Shown: one piece after another, positions 17,064 to 24,655 of the stretch
Position numbering within the stretch: the stretch's first letter is position 1
Layout of the letters: every line of letters starts with the position of its first letter
DNA from: Lachnoanaerobaculum sp. OBRC5-5
GTDB lineage: Bacteria > Bacillota > Clostridia > Lachnospirales > Lachnospiraceae
Length of the DNA: 64,000 bases
Assembly (NCBI RefSeq): GCF_000296385.1
Contig: NZ_JH815185.1
Span: forward strand, 2,360,021-2,424,020
Reading direction: 5' to 3'
Notes under the pieces: model-generated
The model's input: the letters and a program-made list of their open reading frames with translations, nothing else
Told to the model about the DNA's origin: nothing
Database searches by the model: none
Translations under genes and position numbers: made by a program

Positions 17064-17179
17064 CGTCTGCAAATACGATTTAAAGCAAGGAAAATTATAC
17101 AAATGTCTTGGATTTTTGCAAATACTTTCCGATAAAATTCGGATATAGTAAAGGATATCTGAAGGAATTCGTAAATAAC

Positions 17180-17237: not shown

Positions 17238-18767
17238 ATGGAATCTTACTTATTGGAAATGAAAGAAATCAGCAAGTCATTCGGTGCCGTAAAGGCTCTA
17301 AAGGGGGCTTCTTTGAATCTAAAGAGCGGAGAAGTACTGGCTTTAATGGGAGAGAACGGAGCCGGAAAGTCTACTTTGATGAATGTACTTAGCGGTTCTT
17401 TACACCCGGATGAGGGTGAGATTTTACTTGAAGGTGTAAAAAGAGAGATAAAAAATCCTATTCAGGCAAGAAGCCTTGGAATAGTAAAGATTCATCAGGA
17501 ATTGCAGATCGTACCTGAACTTGATATTGCTGAAAATATTTTTCTGGGAAGATGGCAGACAGCAGGCATAGGATTTGTGCAAAAGAAAAAGATGCACGAT
17601 ATGGCTAAGGAATGCTTAAAGATGCTTGAGTGGGAGATAGATACAAGAACCAAGCTTAAGGATTTGCGCATCGGAGAGCAACAACTTGTAGAGATTGCCA
17701 AGGCTATTTCCTGTGAGGCAAAGATAATAGTAATGGATGAGCCGACATCGGCGCTGAGTGAACCTGAGGCGGGGAAGCTCTTCCATGTGATTGAAAAATT
17801 AAAGAAAAAAGGATGCGGTATTATTTATATTACACATCGTATGGAAGAAGTATTTAAAATTTCAGACAGACTAAGTGTAATGAGAGACGGAGAGTACATA
17901 GGTACCAAGGAAGCCGGTGAGACAAACAATGATGAAATCATTGCCATGATGGTAGGTCGCTCGGTGGAGGATCAGTATCCGAAAAGAAATGTGGAAATAG
18001 GAGATGTAGTTCTTGAAGTAAAAAATTTAAGCTTCACTCCTCCTAAGGGAAGCTTTAAGCGTTCTCTAAAGGATATTTCATTTAATGTAAGATCAGGTGA
18101 GGTGCTTGGAATTGCAGGTCTTGCAGGTGCAGGGCGTTCAGAAGTTTTTGAGAGTATCGTAGGAAAGCATGCTACTTGTACCACCGGAGAGATTTTGATG
18201 GATGGAAAGACAATGCAGATACGTTCACCTAAAGACGCTATCGCTGCAGGAATTTCTTTTGCAACAGAGGACAGAAAAGGAACAGGACTTATTCTTGGCA
18301 GAAGCATAGGAGATAATATTTCTCTGCCTTTGTATGATCGCTATGCAAGCTTCGGATTTATGAGAGACGGTAAACAGAAAAAAGACTGGCTGGAATATAT
18401 GAAAAAACTTCGTGTTAAGGCCAAATCTCCGGCGGTACCTGTGGGTTCACTCTCCGGAGGAAATCAGCAAAAAGTAATTCTTGCAAGATGGCTTTTGACA
18501 AAACCTAAGGTGCTTTTACTGGATGAGCCTACCAGAGGTATAGATGTAGGAGCAAAAGAGGAGATTTATCTTTTGATCAATGAGCTGGCGGCATCGGGAC
18601 TTGCTGTAGTGGTAATATCTTCGGAACTTCCTGAAGTAATAGGAATTTGTGACCGTATCATTACTCTTTGTGAAGGCAGACTTACAGGAGAGATTTCAAA
18701 AGAAGAGGCTACTCAGGAAATATTACTGGCGGCAGCCACCAATAGAAAGGAAGTAGTGGAGGCTTAA
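17238..18767 (+). CDS. Sugar ABC transporter ATPase (RbsA/MglA/YtfR-type, two NBDs)
   Basis: 509 aa carrying two fused nucleotide-binding domains. NBD1 has a canonical Walker A (GENGAGKST), a degenerate signature (LRIGEQQLVEIAKA) and Walker B (IIVMDEPTSAL). NBD2 has the non-canonical Walker A GLAGAGRSE typical of this subfamily, a good signature (LSGGNQQKVILARWL) and Walker B (LLLDEPTRGID). This arrangement is diagnostic for CUT2-class importers of ribose, galactose, xylose or galactofuranose. First gene of an operon, with AGGAGG upstream; the permease starts 3 nt after its stop. Confidence 0.95.
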   Translation: MESYLLEMKEISKSFGAVKALKGASLNLKSGEVLALMGENGAGKSTLMNVLSGSLHPDEGEILLEGVKREIKNPIQARSLGIVKIHQELQIVPELDIAENIFLGRWQTAGIGFVQKKKMHDMAKECLKMLEWEIDTRTKLKDLRIGEQQLVEIAKAISCEAKIIVMDEPTSALSEPEAGKLFHVIEKLKKKGCGIIYITHRMEEVFKISDRLSVMRDGEYIGTKEAGETNNDEIIAMMVGRSVEDQYPKRNVEIGDVVLEVKNLSFTPPKGSFKRSLKDISFNVRSGEVLGIAGLAGAGRSEVFESIVGKHATCTTGEILMDGKTMQIRSPKDAIAAGISFATEDRKGTGLILGRSIGDNISLPLYDRYASFGFMRDGKQKKDWLEYMKKLRVKAKSPAVPVGSLSGGNQQKVILARWLLTKPKVLLLDEPTRGIDVGAKEEIYLLINELAASGLAVVVISSELPEVIGICDRIITLCEGRLTGEISKEEATQEILLAAATNRKEVVEA

Positions 18768-18769
18768 TC

Positions 18770-19765
18770 ATGGATGCTGATAAATTAAAGATTCAAAAAA
18801 TAGAAAGTTTTTTAAAACAATTTCAAAGCTATATTGCGCTGATAATTATAGTAGTGGTGGCTACACTTATAAATATTAAGGATGGAGAAAATGTATTCTT
18901 AAGTGTCCCAAACCTTATGAATGTACTTCGTGCAGTTTCAGAAACCGGTATTATTGCCATAGGTATGACAATGATACTTATCTTAGGAGACATCGATCTG
19001 TCTGTAGGTTCGATTGTGGGACTGGTATCCACGGGCTGTGCCTCACTTATGGTAAGAAACGGACTTGGAATGTTTCCGGCAGTGCTTTTAAGTTTACTTA
19101 TAGGCGCTCTGTACGGTTTATTTAACGGATTATGTGTTACAAAGCTTAAACTTCAGGCTTTTATAGTTACGCTTGCAAGTATGAATATTGCAAGAGGTTT
19201 GGCAAGATTTTGGTCAAACGGAGTCGGAATTCCTTTGGCATATGGTGAAGGAGAGGGATTTGCACCTCCTGCCTTCGGATTATTGCAGGAAAAGGCCTTC
19301 GGAGTGATACCTGCACCTGTAATTATATTTATAAGCTTACTTTTGATCTTTCAATGTGTGCTTTCAAAGACATCTTTCGGAAGAAAGGTTTACGCAATCG
19401 GTGGAAACAAAAATGCGTCCTATCTTGCAGGTATACCTGTAGACAGAATAAAGATAATAGCATTTATGCTTTGCAGTATGTTATCTGCGGTAGCGGCTAT
19501 GATACATGCGGCACAGATAAGTCAGGGCGGACCTAATGAAGGTATAGGATATGAGCTCAATGCTGTGGCGGCCTGTGCTATAGGCGGAACTTCACTTGCC
19601 GGCGGAAAAGGAACAATGATAGGCACCTTGGTAGGTGCGATAATCCTCGGATTACTTGACAATGTGCTTGGACTTAAGGGAGTCAATTCAAATTTACAGT
19701 TGATGGTAAAGGGACTTATTATAATTGTTGCAGTATTTATGCAATCTGAAAGAAAATCTGATTAG
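18770..19765 (+). CDS. Sugar ABC transporter permease (CUT2 family)
   Basis: 331 aa with about 8-10 hydrophobic segments. The family motif GDIDLSVGSIVGL is present, as is the conserved loop GGNKNASYLAGIPVDRIKI with the downstream AACAIGGTSLAGGKGTM-type stretch. It would form a homodimer with the two-NBD ATPase, as only one permease gene is present. It lies between the ATPase (3-nt gap) and the binding-protein gene (73-nt gap). Confidence 0.95.
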   Translation: MDADKLKIQKIESFLKQFQSYIALIIIVVVATLINIKDGENVFLSVPNLMNVLRAVSETGIIAIGMTMILILGDIDLSVGSIVGLVSTGCASLMVRNGLGMFPAVLLSLLIGALYGLFNGLCVTKLKLQAFIVTLASMNIARGLARFWSNGVGIPLAYGEGEGFAPPAFGLLQEKAFGVIPAPVIIFISLLLIFQCVLSKTSFGRKVYAIGGNKNASYLAGIPVDRIKIIAFMLCSMLSAVAAMIHAAQISQGGPNEGIGYELNAVAACAIGGTSLAGGKGTMIGTLVGAIILGLLDNVLGLKGVNSNLQLMVKGLIIIVAVFMQSERKSD

Positions 19766-19838: not shown

Positions 19839-20885
19839 ATGATGAAAAAAGGTTTTAAGAGAATGTTAGGACTCGGTTTGGCGGCAGTTTGTGCATTCGG
19901 ATTGACTGCTTGTGCCGGTGGAGGTCAGAGTGCTTCTACAACAGCGGCTCAAAGCGAGGAGGCAAAGAGTGAGGCCGGAGAGAGTAAGAGCGAGGGGGCA
20001 ACAGCACAGAAGAAGGAATTTGTGATAGGTATGTCACAGTGTAATCTTGGTGAGCCATGGCGTGTGGCAATGAATGACCAGATCAAGATGGCGGCTGAAA
20101 AGCATCCTGAATTCAAGGTTATCTATGCCGATGCGGCTCAGGATAACTCAAAGCAGATAGCGGATATTCAAAACTTTATACAGCAGAAAGTGGATCTTAT
20201 CATTACTTCACCAAATGAGGCAACACCGCTTACAAATGTAGTTAAGGAAGCTTATGAAGCCGGAATTCCCGTAATACTGTTGGATCGTAAGATTGACGGA
20301 GATACATATACTCAGTTTATAGGTGCCGACAATGTGGATATGGGTAGGGTTGCAGGAGAATATGTAGCCAATACTCTCTTAAAAGACGGCGGAAAAGTTT
20401 GTGAGATCAAGGGACTTGAGGGTACTTCAGGCGGAATCGACAGAGATAAGGGATTTAGAGAAGGTATTGCATCAAATCCTAAGGTTGAGATTGTTGCGGT
20501 AAACAATGCAGACTGGTTAAGAGAAAAAGCTATAACAGTGGCTGAAGAAATGTTACAGACAAATAAGGAAATCGATCTTTTCATAGCATTAAACGATCCT
20601 ATGGCTGAGGGTGCATATATCGCGGCAAAGCAGGCAGGAAGAGAGAAGGATATCATGTTTGTAGGATTTGACGGTTTGCCAACTCCTGACGGTGGAATAA
20701 AGAGTGTTATCGATAAGAGAATCAGCATGACACAGGTATATCCTACAGGTGGTGCAGAGGCTATTCAGAGTGCATATGAGTTACTCGTTGAAGGCAAGGA
20801 ACTTGAGAAAAATATTACTCTAAAGTCGGAGGTTGTAGTTCCTGAAAATGCTGAAGAGCTCTTGACAAAATACGGCGGAAAATAA
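19839..20885 (+). CDS. Sugar-binding lipoprotein (RbsB/YtfQ-type)
   Basis: 348 aa starting at the ATG at 19839 (AGGAAGGAG site); a longer in-frame reading from 19725 overlaps the permease and is rejected. A lipobox LTAC gives Cys anchoring after a ~25-residue signal, then a Ser/Glu-rich tether. The periplasmic-binding fold (peripla_BP_4) shows IGMSQCNLGEPWRVAMN, QIADIQNFIQQKVDLIITSP, IPVILLDRKIDGD and FIGADNVDMGRVAGEY. The WR and DRKI segments resemble the galactofuranose-binding YtfQ group more than RbsB. Ligand assignment is tentative. Confidence 0.92.
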   Translation: MMKKGFKRMLGLGLAAVCAFGLTACAGGGQSASTTAAQSEEAKSEAGESKSEGATAQKKEFVIGMSQCNLGEPWRVAMNDQIKMAAEKHPEFKVIYADAAQDNSKQIADIQNFIQQKVDLIITSPNEATPLTNVVKEAYEAGIPVILLDRKIDGDTYTQFIGADNVDMGRVAGEYVANTLLKDGGKVCEIKGLEGTSGGIDRDKGFREGIASNPKVEIVAVNNADWLREKAITVAEEMLQTNKEIDLFIALNDPMAEGAYIAAKQAGREKDIMFVGFDGLPTPDGGIKSVIDKRISMTQVYPTGGAEAIQSAYELLVEGKELEKNITLKSEVVVPENAEELLTKYGGK

Positions 20886-20926
20886 GAAAAGCGTGACGGT
20901 TTAAAAGTAAATAATGAATCCAAAAA

Positions 20927-20960
20927 GGGGGAGCAGATTTTGATATGCTCCTCTTTTTTG
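20927..20960 (+). terminator. Intrinsic terminator between the ABC operon and the sensor genes
   Basis: Stem GGGGAGCA/TGCTCCTC (one G-T pair) around a GATTTTGATA loop, then six T. It separates the transporter transcript from the kinase/regulator genes, or permits partial read-through. Confidence 0.85.
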
Positions 20961-21046
20961 TATCCTCGGTTTTGCTGTCATATTCAGTGCTTAAAAACTG
21001 ATATAAATTTACGGTTCATATGATACAATTAATAAGAGGTGGTAGT

Positions 21047-22771
21047 ATGAAAAGAGATCTTCTGATATTTCAGGGGGCCATGATTTTATTTGTGGCGGTA
21101 ATGCTGACTTTGGCAGGAAACTATATTTACAAAAAAGAGATGCTCCGTTCAAGGATGGGCTATATTACAGAATTACAAAGGCAACTTGCGCATTCTTTTG
21201 AGGTGAAGATACAATCTGTGGATGATACATTACAGATTCTGTCGGAAACATCAGAGATTAAAAATTGTCTTTACACAAAAGATAAAGAAACCAAAATCTA
21301 TCGTGAGCAGGCTGTACGTGATATTTTTGATGCTTATGAGAAAATTCATGGTGATTATTTAAATATGATCCTTGTATATGGGGACGGAGAAGATTATATC
21401 TCAAATGATATGTACAGGCCGGTGCATGAAAGTTTCTATGGAGAGGATTGGTTTTTACAGGCGATACAGGAGGGAAGTGCCTACCGCTTTGACAGTGGAC
21501 TTAGAAATCTCCAAAGCTGGAAGCATTATGACAGTGACAGTTATATTTCAATTGCAAGATCGGTACAGGAGGGTGACAGGACTCTTGGAGTGCTGATGGT
21601 GGATGTTTCTGTGGGAGATTTCAAAGAGGCCTATCAGAATCTGGAAGCCGATACTGAAAACTTTTTCTTTTTAATGGATGACAGCGGAGAGATAATTCTA
21701 AGTCCTGTAAACAGGATAGTATATAGAGTTGATCCGAAGTGGTTTAAAGGTAATGAAGGCGTTGTGGTTTCCTCAATCGGTGATAAAAACTATAAATTTG
21801 TGTTTAATCGTTTTCGTGATAACAAACTTTTGATAGTAGGGGCATATGATATGGAGGAGGAAAGTAAAATTCCTCTTCGTATGACCAGGATTTCAATATT
21901 TATGGCGGGAGTCTGCTTTGTGGCTGCTATGATATGGTCGGTGTGTTATCTTTTGGAAATAACTAAGCCTTTAACAGAGCTTTCGGATTTGATGCAGTCG
22001 GCTTCTGACGGAAATCTTGATGTCAGATTTAAGAGAGAATCCAAAGAGGATATAAGAATCCTGGGAGATGCTTTCAATAAGATGGTGGAGAAGCTTAAAA
22101 CTCTGATGGAAATGATGAAGCTTGAACAAAAGCAAAAGCGTGAAGCGGAACTTTTGGTAATGCAGGAACAGATAAAACCTCATTTTTTATATAATACCTT
22201 GGATATGATTGCCTGGATGGCAAGAAAACATGGAGCAGGGGATATAGTGCATCTGATTGAAACCATGTCCGAGTTTTTCCGCATAAGTCTCAGCAAGGGC
22301 AAGGAGATGATTCCTTTAAAAGAGGAGCTTAAAATGATACAGGCTTATTTGGAGATTCAAAGTATGAGATATCAGGATCTTTTTTCCTATGAGATTTTCT
22401 GCTCACCGGATATAAGAGATGAGCTTATACTCAGGATGTGTCTTCAGCCATTGGTTGAGAACTGTTTGTATCACGGTATTAAAGAATCGGACAATCCACA
22501 TGCAAAAATAATGATATCTGCAGAGGCGGTTAGAGGAGGAATGCGTATACAGATAAGAGATAACGGATGTGAGATGGGAGAGGAGGTCATGGAGCAGCTA
22601 AACTCTTGTTTAAAGGCAAATGACTGGGAAAACTGGAAGGGCGGATTCGGTGTAAAAAATGTAGGAAGAAGGCTGTGGCACAGCTTTGCAAAGGGTAGCG
22701 GATTGCATTACTCAAAAGATGAAAACGGTTATACAGTGGCAACTTTACTGATTTTAAAAGAAGATGAGTAA
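21047..22771 (+). CDS. YesM-type sensor histidine kinase
   Basis: 574 aa from the ATG at 21047, which is correctly spaced from GAGGTGG. Helix 1 spans about 10-28, an extracellular Cache-like sensor about 30-280, and helix 2 about 283-304. HAMP follows. The His_kinase domain (PF06580) has the acceptor His379 in QIKPHFLYNTLDMIAW. The ATPase lobe shows QPLVENCLYHGI and a slightly altered G1 box, RDNGCEMGEE in place of the usual DNGxGM. With the next two genes it forms a sensory set that adjoins the sugar importer and probably controls it. Confidence 0.93.
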   Translation: MKRDLLIFQGAMILFVAVMLTLAGNYIYKKEMLRSRMGYITELQRQLAHSFEVKIQSVDDTLQILSETSEIKNCLYTKDKETKIYREQAVRDIFDAYEKIHGDYLNMILVYGDGEDYISNDMYRPVHESFYGEDWFLQAIQEGSAYRFDSGLRNLQSWKHYDSDSYISIARSVQEGDRTLGVLMVDVSVGDFKEAYQNLEADTENFFFLMDDSGEIILSPVNRIVYRVDPKWFKGNEGVVVSSIGDKNYKFVFNRFRDNKLLIVGAYDMEEESKIPLRMTRISIFMAGVCFVAAMIWSVCYLLEITKPLTELSDLMQSASDGNLDVRFKRESKEDIRILGDAFNKMVEKLKTLMEMMKLEQKQKREAELLVMQEQIKPHFLYNTLDMIAWMARKHGAGDIVHLIETMSEFFRISLSKGKEMIPLKEELKMIQAYLEIQSMRYQDLFSYEIFCSPDIRDELILRMCLQPLVENCLYHGIKESDNPHAKIMISAEAVRGGMRIQIRDNGCEMGEEVMEQLNSCLKANDWENWKGGFGVKNVGRRLWHSFAKGSGLHYSKDENGYTVATLLILKEDE

Positions 22772-22789
22772 AAAAGCCCGGAGGTGAGA

Positions 22790-23500
22790 ATGAAAAAAGT
22801 ATTGATTGCGGATGATGAACCTATGATCAGAGAAGGATTGGCAGAAATGCTTATGTCCTTTGATCTTGGATTAAATATTGTAGGTAAAGCAAAGAACGGA
22901 GTGGAAGCCCTCAGTATGGCCAAAACTTTAGGACCGGATATTATACTGGCGGATATTTGTATGCCTAGGCTTTCAGGACTGGATTTTATAAGCAAGCTTC
23001 GTGAAGTCGAACAGACCAAAACAGACATTATTATTATCTCGGGATTTCATGAATTTGAATATGCCAGACAGGCTATTTCTCTGGGTGTAAGGGAGTATCT
23101 TTTAAAGCCTATCAAAGAAGAGGAGTTAAAATCCGTTCTTGAAAGATTGCAAGTTCCTTTTAAGGAGATAAAAAAGCAGAAGAAAGGTTTTGTGTCGGAC
23201 TGTTTGGAACTTTTAAAAGAGCAATATACAAACAGAGATATGGACTTAAAATATGCGGCGGAAAAGCTTTTTGTAAGTCCTGATTATCTTTCACATAAGC
23301 TGAAGGAAGAAACGGGACTGCCTTTTTCACAGTGGCTGGTAAAGCTTAGGATTCAAAGAGCGGCTGAACTTTTAGAGACCGGAGAGTATTCCGTAAATGC
23401 GGTTGCCGATATGGTGGGATTTGCAAACCAGCATTACTTCTCAACGGTATTTAAACAGTATATGGGGAAATCACCGAAGCAATACGGAGGAGGAGTATGA
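22790..23500 (+). CDS. YesN/AraC-type response regulator
   Basis: 236 aa from the ATG at 22790, which has CGGAGGTGAG at the right distance; the GTG at 22784 lies inside that site. The receiver domain shows DDE at 9-11, phosphoacceptor Asp55 (IILADICMPRLSG) and LLKPIKEEEL. The C-terminal AraC domain has both helix-turn-helix motifs (LKYAAEKLFVSPDYLSHKLK and VNAVADMVGFANQHYFSTVF then KQYMGKSPKQY). It follows the kinase by 18 nt. The likely target is the upstream CUT2 operon. Confidence 0.95.
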   Translation: MKKVLIADDEPMIREGLAEMLMSFDLGLNIVGKAKNGVEALSMAKTLGPDIILADICMPRLSGLDFISKLREVEQTKTDIIIISGFHEFEYARQAISLGVREYLLKPIKEEELKSVLERLQVPFKEIKKQKKGFVSDCLELLKEQYTNRDMDLKYAAEKLFVSPDYLSHKLKEETGLPFSQWLVKLRIQRAAELLETGEYSVNAVADMVGFANQHYFSTVFKQYMGKSPKQYGGGV

Positions 23501-24393
23501 GAAAGATTCTTGCCCGTCCAAAAGAGCTGATACTTTTAGCTTTTATACTTGTTTGCATTTTAGGATTGTTTTTATCGGAAAAATTATACGGTGAAACTTA
23601 TGAAAAGGTGGAATCATACTCCTGCCTGATAGGACTTAGCTTGCCTGAGGTGGAGAATCCTTCACATGGAGCTTTGATGGAAGAATTACATTCTGAAATG
23701 AAGAATCGTGATCTTAATATGATAATGAAAGAAGCGGGAGGAGATTTCCTGCAACAATGTAAGGATATTAAGCAGCTGGCTGCCTACGGTGTGGATGTGA
23801 TGGTCATTTCACCGATAGATTCGGAAGCGGTAAGAGAGGCTATAAAGGAACTAAATATGCCGGTGATTATCTTGGAAAATCCGAAATTTTTTGATGCAGG
23901 CAGTGTGTATATGGAGTATGACGGCATTTGGGGCGGAAGAGCTCTGAGTCATATGATTTTTAATGAACATTCTGATGGAATTTTACTGCTTAGAGGTCCT
24001 GATTATGATCCTGTAAGCAGACAAAGGGAGGAAGCTTTTTTAGCCGGTCTTACTAAGGAGCAGAGAGAAAGCTTGACGATACTTGAAGTCGGACAAAACA
24101 GAGACGAGGCGGAGAGAGCCATGAAATATTTTCTTATTTCAAATACAGGTATAAAAGCGGTGGCGGGGCTGAGTTCACAGACATTATACGGTGCATATCT
24201 GGCGGCTGTAAAATTCAGAAATTTTGATATGGAATTTTACGGCATAGATAATGAGATGAGTATAAATAAGATTAGTGACGGAGACTTTCATTGGGTAGTA
24301 TATAACAGCATGGCAAAGAAAATACTTGATGTGGGAGAAGAGCTGTATCTTGGAAAAGAAGTTGAAAAAAAGATTGAAATAGGGGGGATGTAA
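23497..24393 (+). CDS. Membrane-anchored sugar-binding protein, probable sensory partner of YesM
   Basis: 298 aa, overlapping the regulator stop by 4 nt with a GGAGGAG site inside the regulator gene. An N-terminal helix (about 10-27) has no lipobox Cys, so the protein should be tethered by an uncleaved anchor. The rest is a periplasmic-binding fold (peripla_BP_4-like): LIGLSLPEVENPSHGALMEEL, VDVMVISPIDSEAVREAI, MPVIILENPKF, FYGIDNEMSINKI. It is not part of the transporter operon. In the known XylFII-LytS type of system a binding protein hands its sugar signal to the kinase; the same job is inferred here. Confidence 0.82.
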   Translation: MRKILARPKELILLAFILVCILGLFLSEKLYGETYEKVESYSCLIGLSLPEVENPSHGALMEELHSEMKNRDLNMIMKEAGGDFLQQCKDIKQLAAYGVDVMVISPIDSEAVREAIKELNMPVIILENPKFFDAGSVYMEYDGIWGGRALSHMIFNEHSDGILLLRGPDYDPVSRQREEAFLAGLTKEQRESLTILEVGQNRDEAERAMKYFLISNTGIKAVAGLSSQTLYGAYLAAVKFRNFDMEFYGIDNEMSINKISDGDFHWVVYNSMAKKILDVGEELYLGKEVEKKIEIGGM

Positions 24394-24577
24394 GCTGATA
24401 ATACCTGTATTCAATCAAAATGTAAATTTAGAATAAATAAAGGTTTATTTATAATTCATTTTTTTTGTTACAGATATATTGAAAATAAAACTTAAATATA
24501 AAGCAACAAAATAAATTAATAAAAACATGAAAATAATATACAAAACAGCAAGTTGTATATGTGGTCGTTGTGTAAGA

Positions 24578-24606
24578 TTGCGTTACGGATTTATTTAATT
24601 TATAAT
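24578..24606 (+). promoter_or_regulatory. Promoter of the PTS gene
   Basis: TTGCGT (24578-24583), a 17-bp spacer, and a perfect TATAAT (24601-24606), 50 nt before the start. The remaining upstream sequence (from 24394) is very AT-rich and contains no gene I can see. Confidence 0.7.
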
Positions 24607-24655
24607 ATACAAAGAAATTTAAGAAAAATGATAGTTTAGAATATGGAGGATATCT

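Follow-up and report, generated by a model that had tools for sequence, protein, structure and literature searches.

The closest described relatives of the locus discussed here place an additional substrate-binding protein (SBP) beside a sensor kinase. The XylFII-LytS/YesN-XylFGH system of Clostridium beijerinckii is called a hexa-protein module in PMC7017829, and the sensor domain of LytS is reported as a four-helix bundle (PMC9769921). In Ruminiclostridium cellulolyticum, the CuaDSR system controls an importer; a two-hybrid test showed binding of CuaD to CuaS, CuaD improves the response to cellobiose, and the outer domain of CuaS was modelled as rod-shaped, with two five-stranded sheets (PMC10384115). 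In a single case from another organism, PMC13068155 notes a YesM-YesN locus whose non-lipoprotein PF13407 protein is a possible partner of the kinase; an accessory protein of this sort has thus already been proposed in print. Here we describe a locus in a 64,000-nucleotide stretch (the window, contig positions 2360021-2424020) of the 2.93 Mb genome of Lachnoanaerobaculum sp. OBRC5-5, where a YesM-type sensor kinase, a YesN-type response regulator and a membrane-anchored homologue of sugar-binding proteins are encoded after a CUT2 sugar importer, and where these three proteins are likely to form a three-component sensing unit controlling that importer.

A coupled sensor locus beside a CUT2 importer

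The kinase gene runs from an ATG at 21047 to a stop codon ending at 22771 on the forward strand, as do all parts of this locus, and encodes 574 residues; a longer in-frame start exists at 21020, but the sequence aagaggtgg precedes 21047. Its product combines two transmembrane helices and a dCache-like outer domain (about residues 29-283) with HAMP, His_kinase and HATPase_c domains. Pfam matched His_kinase (3e-25) and HAMP, together with HATPase_c just under its cut-off (3.1e-5, 24.8 bits against 26.4) and dCache_1 below its curated cut-off (5.3e-8, 33 bits against 45), and the motifs PHFLYNTL, LVENCLYHG and GFG are present. The regulator (ATG at 22790, ending at 23500, 236 residues) consists of a receiver (Response_reg) and an AraC-type helix-turn-helix domain (HTH_18), and the pair displays the YesM/YesN family features of a PF06580 kinase with HATPase_c and HAMP and a receiver-AraC regulator. 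Open reading frame coordinates confirm the coupled set proposed in the earlier note, with 18 nt between kinase and regulator (22772-22789) and a 4-nt overlap (23497-23500) between the regulator and the binding-protein gene (23497-24393, 298 residues). The last product carries a helix at about residues 11-28 followed by a Peripla_BP_4 domain (4e-13, above its cut-off). Pattern search and gene order agree with the same note that this protein has no lipobox and is encoded after the regulator, and the preceding importer does have a lipoprotein of its own, with an LTAC lipobox in the product of 19839-20885. Co-encoding of a kinase, a regulator and a dedicated binding protein is the arrangement that characterizes SBP-dependent three-component sensors.

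A comparison of six Lachnoanaerobaculum genomes, the window genome included, found the anchored protein in five (100, 92, 91, 72 and 58% identity). The six genes of importer and sensor occur together in these five, in the same order, with the importer SBP 95-98% identical in the other four. In the sixth genome (G250) the anchored protein is missing, the best match to the importer SBP reaches 30%, and the genes that elsewhere flank the block, MATE on its left and PTS (phosphotransferase system) on its right, directly follow one another; part of the region upstream of the PTS gene can still be recognised. In these six genomes, importer and sensor genes are therefore either kept or missing together. 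The anchored-protein gene is clearly under purifying selection, with an omega (ratio of non-synonymous to synonymous rates) of 0.13-0.17, compared to 0.017-0.075 for the other block genes and 0.042-0.098 for the flanking MATE and PTS genes.

We suggest one sensing unit tied to the importer because of the gene order, the loss as one block and a family-wide association described below. The anchored protein would lie on the membrane's outer face, paired with the kinase's dCache domain. A bound ligand, or some other change in the anchored protein, would act on the kinase via HAMP, the kinase would phosphorylate YesN at its receiver domain, and YesN would activate the importer promoter upstream of 17238. 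The contact between kinase and binding protein, the ligand, the direction of the signal and the target promoter are the elements of this scheme that we infer. Consistent with such a pairing, distances between kinase outer domains correlate with distances between binding proteins when the kinase core is controlled for (partial rank correlation 0.51 over 29 pairs, and 0.46 over 24 once L118, L122 and the three pairs of the genus are dropped; the set holds no double-domain or cut pairs and lacks some near-duplicates), and 0 of 1000 permutations reached a correlation as high.

The importer itself consists of an ATPase (17238-18767, ABC_tran), for which xylose, ribose and arabinose importer ATPases lead the NCBIfam matches listed (the best 25 of 198), each below its cut-off, a permease (18770-19765, BPD_transp_2, 4.6e-43) and the lipoprotein SBP (19839-20885, Peripla_BP_4, 8.7e-53). 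The top Protein Data Bank match of the latter is 2x7x, the fructose-binding (sensor) domain of BT1754 (215 bits, the next match scoring 141 bits); a furanose-type sugar is thus no more than a lead. The block is without catabolic genes, despite this resemblance to a fructose sensor. Upstream of the importer lies a conserved segment (17085-17150), in which GGATTTTTNCAAATAC is shared by 5/5 aligned orthologous regions and is followed by a TATAGT-like element at 17144; it also holds two CAAAT words 19 nt apart, and our guess is that this segment may be a candidate site for the regulator. At the other end of the block, the PTS upstream region (24495-24655) is partly conserved in the genus, including the block-less G250, and therefore probably belongs to the PTS gene.

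Distribution and anchoring among Lachnospiraceae relatives

When the anchored protein was searched against 250 Lachnospiraceae genomes, 14 matched at 1e-10, namely its own genome, one of the same genus (91%) and, at 20-30% identity, genomes of other genera; the kinase outer domain as a single query found four of the 250 (two of the genus, G099 and G179). A profile built from eight outer kinase domains matched 101 of 397 family genomes in 132 rows, six of which were members of the profile. From the 126 other rows 53 were opened: rows 7-38 in order (32), 20 hand-picked from rows 39-131, and row 132, a locus in the window's own genome. A Peripla_BP gene lies downstream of the kinase in 49 of these 53 (30/32, 18/20 and 1/1, respectively), overlapping the kinase gene or at most 11 nt away from it, except in L086, where YesN stands in between. 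Two of the binding-protein matches are weak (L105, the locus of row 132, with 32 bits against a cut-off of 35.1, and L122 with 25 bits by a custom profile). At E <= 0.001, Peripla_BP_4 was found in all 32 kinase-neighbour proteins scanned and dCache_1 in all 36 kinases scanned, and a CUT2 ATPase is also encoded in 28 of the 32 first-opened stretches. Among the four rows without a binding protein, L123 reaches a contig edge 113 nt after the kinase, L129 and L138 are taken up below, and L117 is a GGDEF/EAL protein, not a YesM.

Within the window genome, six of nine YesM kinases (L106 and L108-L112) had no Peripla_BP neighbour in the stretches taken, as judged with a profile blind to SBP_bac_1-type proteins, and the neighbour of another, L107, is the lipoprotein SBP of a CUT2 importer. 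The same genome holds a second set, at about 2087900-2093300 of contig C1 (L105:6426-11814), comprising a YesN, a dCache YesM, the weakly matching helix-anchored Peripla_BP protein and a further lipoprotein SBP.

By kinase outer domain, the closest relatives of the window locus carry two Peripla_BP domains in one chain of 620-672 residues (G099, G179, G206, G365 and G332; two Pfam stretches in the four scanned, and a custom profile for G332, whose chain is cut by the end of the stretch). These proteins (L039:7579-9462, L040:8385-10253, L041:8061-10079, L085:7424-9286 and L086:1-1566) are encoded beside a CUT2 importer and a dCache YesM. In a tree of binding proteins, which carries a long-branch warning, their second halves fall beside importer SBPs from G099, G179 and G206; the SBP of the window's importer joins their first halves at moderate support (90/94). 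Window-type anchored proteins have a long branch (2.5) and stand with importer and double-domain proteins, outside the main sensing group; by a profile they come closest to the first half of the double-domain chains and to the SBP of the importer. In 15 of the 18 hand-picked positives another SBP gene lies downstream, about 1 kb from the kinase, and the product matches the lipobox pattern in 7 of those 15. The order YesM, anchored SBP, second SBP recurs in L126, L128, L130-L137, L139 and L141-L144.

The N-terminal helix of the window protein has a mean hydropathy of 2.75 over 18 residues, with neither a lipobox by pattern nor an AxA after the helix, and it is predicted to stay uncleaved. A hydrophobic N-terminal helix without a lipobox by pattern was likewise seen in 36 of 38 kinase-neighbour binding proteins inspected (5 from the genus, 5 double-domain and 28 others), the exceptions being the double-domain proteins of G206 and G332, which have a lipobox. 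G099 shows a borderline YIGC, and an AxA near the helix end in G204 and G254 makes cleavage possible there. In the 20 hand-picked loci, 17 of 18 binding proteins lack a lipobox and the eighteenth (L125) matches only within the helix, compared to 37 of 51 further binding-type proteins from the opened stretches that have the pattern; this set of 51 seems to include a few LacI-type regulators, and the pattern misses some cysteines. Judged from their sequences, helix anchoring is the usual state among the relatives inspected and is not peculiar to the window locus. An orphan binding protein is thereby joined to a sizeable Lachnospiraceae group of CUT2-linked sensors, in which the sensing protein is held by a helix rather than as a lipoprotein. 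This suggests a simple rule for separating sensing from transporting binding proteins in Lachnospiraceae genomes, and the group offers many candidate ligand-kinase pairs.

The binding pocket and possible alternative roles of the anchored protein

A number of observations weigh against a sugar-sensing unit that acts on the importer. Most of the motifs that the importer SBP has in common with a known fructose sensor are changed in the anchored protein, where EPWR, DRK, LNDP and FDG read NPSH, ENP, LSSQ and IDN. At the 12 positions that we take to be the ribose contacts of ribose-binding protein, mapped by eye on the alignment, it keeps the ribose-protein residue at only three (N, R and D), the equivalents of S9, N105 and Q235 being uncertain. 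Its non-synonymous divergence (dN) is the highest of the block, exceeding the values of the other five genes by factors of about 1.6 to 11, and outside its own genome it exceeds 30% identity in a single same-genus match among the 250 family genomes. The solo model of this protein is weak, with a mean predicted local distance difference test (pLDDT) score of 67.5 and a predicted template modelling score of 0.51 from an alignment of only 4 rows; its Foldseek matches are ribose-type binding proteins (E 9e-12, template modelling score ~0.34), and the model therefore supports the fold family only. The kinase model (residues 1-318, 3 rows) had a pLDDT of 36.6 and was unusable, so that no interface was judged. 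In the distance analysis, kinase-core and binding-protein distances are also still correlated once the outer domain is accounted for (0.34 and 0.27), and shared history thus accounts for part of the signal. L129 and L138 have dCache YesM kinases and YesN without an adjacent anchored protein, which means that a dCache YesM can do without one, and XydS/R, a two-component system for hemicellulose, is without an extra binding protein according to PMC5815224, which speaks against generality.

A terminator-like hairpin with a T run (about 20921-20959; fold -21 kcal/mol, z -4.43), unmentioned in the earlier note, also lies between the importer genes and the sensor genes, and the two halves are therefore probably transcribed separately. 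The hairpin was missing from the output of a consensus terminator scan, which allows only shorter loops; visual inspection of an alignment shows it preserved in the genus genomes G253 and G088 and altered or missing in G252 and G251. Of the three-component sugar sensor put forward in the earlier note, the part that stands is a single unit tied to the importer; the ligand may or may not be a sugar, the pocket motifs being mostly replaced.

As an unlikely sub-case of the three-component reading, the anchored protein may be a tethered adaptor that binds no small sugar, reads another partner (for example the loaded importer SBP) or a different ligand, and relays this to the kinase. The replaced motifs, the few ribose-type contacts and the high dN all fit such a role, as does the longest invariant stretch across the five genus proteins, NRDEAERAMKYFLIS (residues 201-215, 15 residues, 5/5), which is a possible contact surface. 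Against this, the contact positions are invariant within the genus at 9 of 12, compared to 134 of 257 overall (p 0.09, not significant), which leans towards a pocket that is kept yet different, and nothing points to any particular partner. A more specific version, which we hold to be rather improbable, is that the Lachnoanaerobaculum protein has lost sugar binding and now serves as tethered adaptor for the loaded importer lipoprotein or a non-sugar ligand, relatives retaining sugar-type pockets and some of them two domains per chain.

Ligands are often bound directly by dCache domains, and the kinase might itself sense the ligand, as loci such as L129 and L138 would allow, with the anchored protein as an accessory or alternative importer SBP. 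According to PMC10384115, the cellobiose response persisted in strains with plasmid-borne CuaSR and no CuaD, but the outer domain of CuaS alone had no affinity for the sugars tested. This explanation is very improbable, as the anchored-protein gene overlaps the regulator here and the kinase in most opened relatives rather than transporter genes, accompanies the kinase in nearly all opened relatives, and stands beside an importer already equipped with its own lipoprotein SBP. The three-component unit controlling the importer is accordingly the reading that we prefer.

Comparison with described systems

The likeness to XylFII-LytS-YesN lies in six proteins comprising a CUT2 importer with its own SBP, a kinase, a YesN and a second, sensing SBP (PMC7017829). 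XylFII itself (5xsj_X) matches the profile of sensing proteins with 134 bits and is missing among 24 single-sequence matches. The outer domains differ, which also counts against the preferred reading: LytS is reported to have a four-helix bundle (PMC9769921), whereas the window kinase is dCache-like, chemoreceptor Cache domains head its solved relatives and LytS is missing among the 32 listed. The tie to the XylFII-LytS type, as claimed in the earlier note, is a shared plan, and does not extend to the sensor domain.

The CuaDSR system likewise joins a second SBP to a two-transmembrane HAMP kinase and a YesN/AraC regulator, and the modelled outer domain of CuaS is more like the dCache-like domain of the window kinase than is the four-helix bundle of LytS. 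However, CuaD is a 410-residue cleaved lipoprotein whose gene lies upstream of those for kinase and regulator, and it works with a cellodextrin importer (PMC10384115), whereas the window protein is a helix-anchored Peripla_BP_4 protein without a lipobox by pattern, encoded last.

The best solved relative of the family's sensing-protein profile is 3brs from Clostridium phytofermentans (360 bits). AraP (6sw4) and GanP (6gq0), of the AraPST and GanPST systems of Geobacillus, were also among the structure and profile matches. No paper on the helix-anchored Lachnospiraceae group was found by title or abstract start, subscription papers being outside this coverage. Close counterparts are the sets of other Lachnospiraceae, which likewise pair a dCache YesM with a helix-anchored Peripla_BP protein, mostly beside CUT2 genes. 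Most of them differ from the window locus in that the SBP follows straight after the kinase, YesN is longer and the pocket motifs are not the same, and some have two SBPs or one double-domain SBP. We conclude that the sensing unit is real, conserved and of a known kind, and that its variant, a dCache kinase with a helix-anchored binding protein, is common among the opened relatives.

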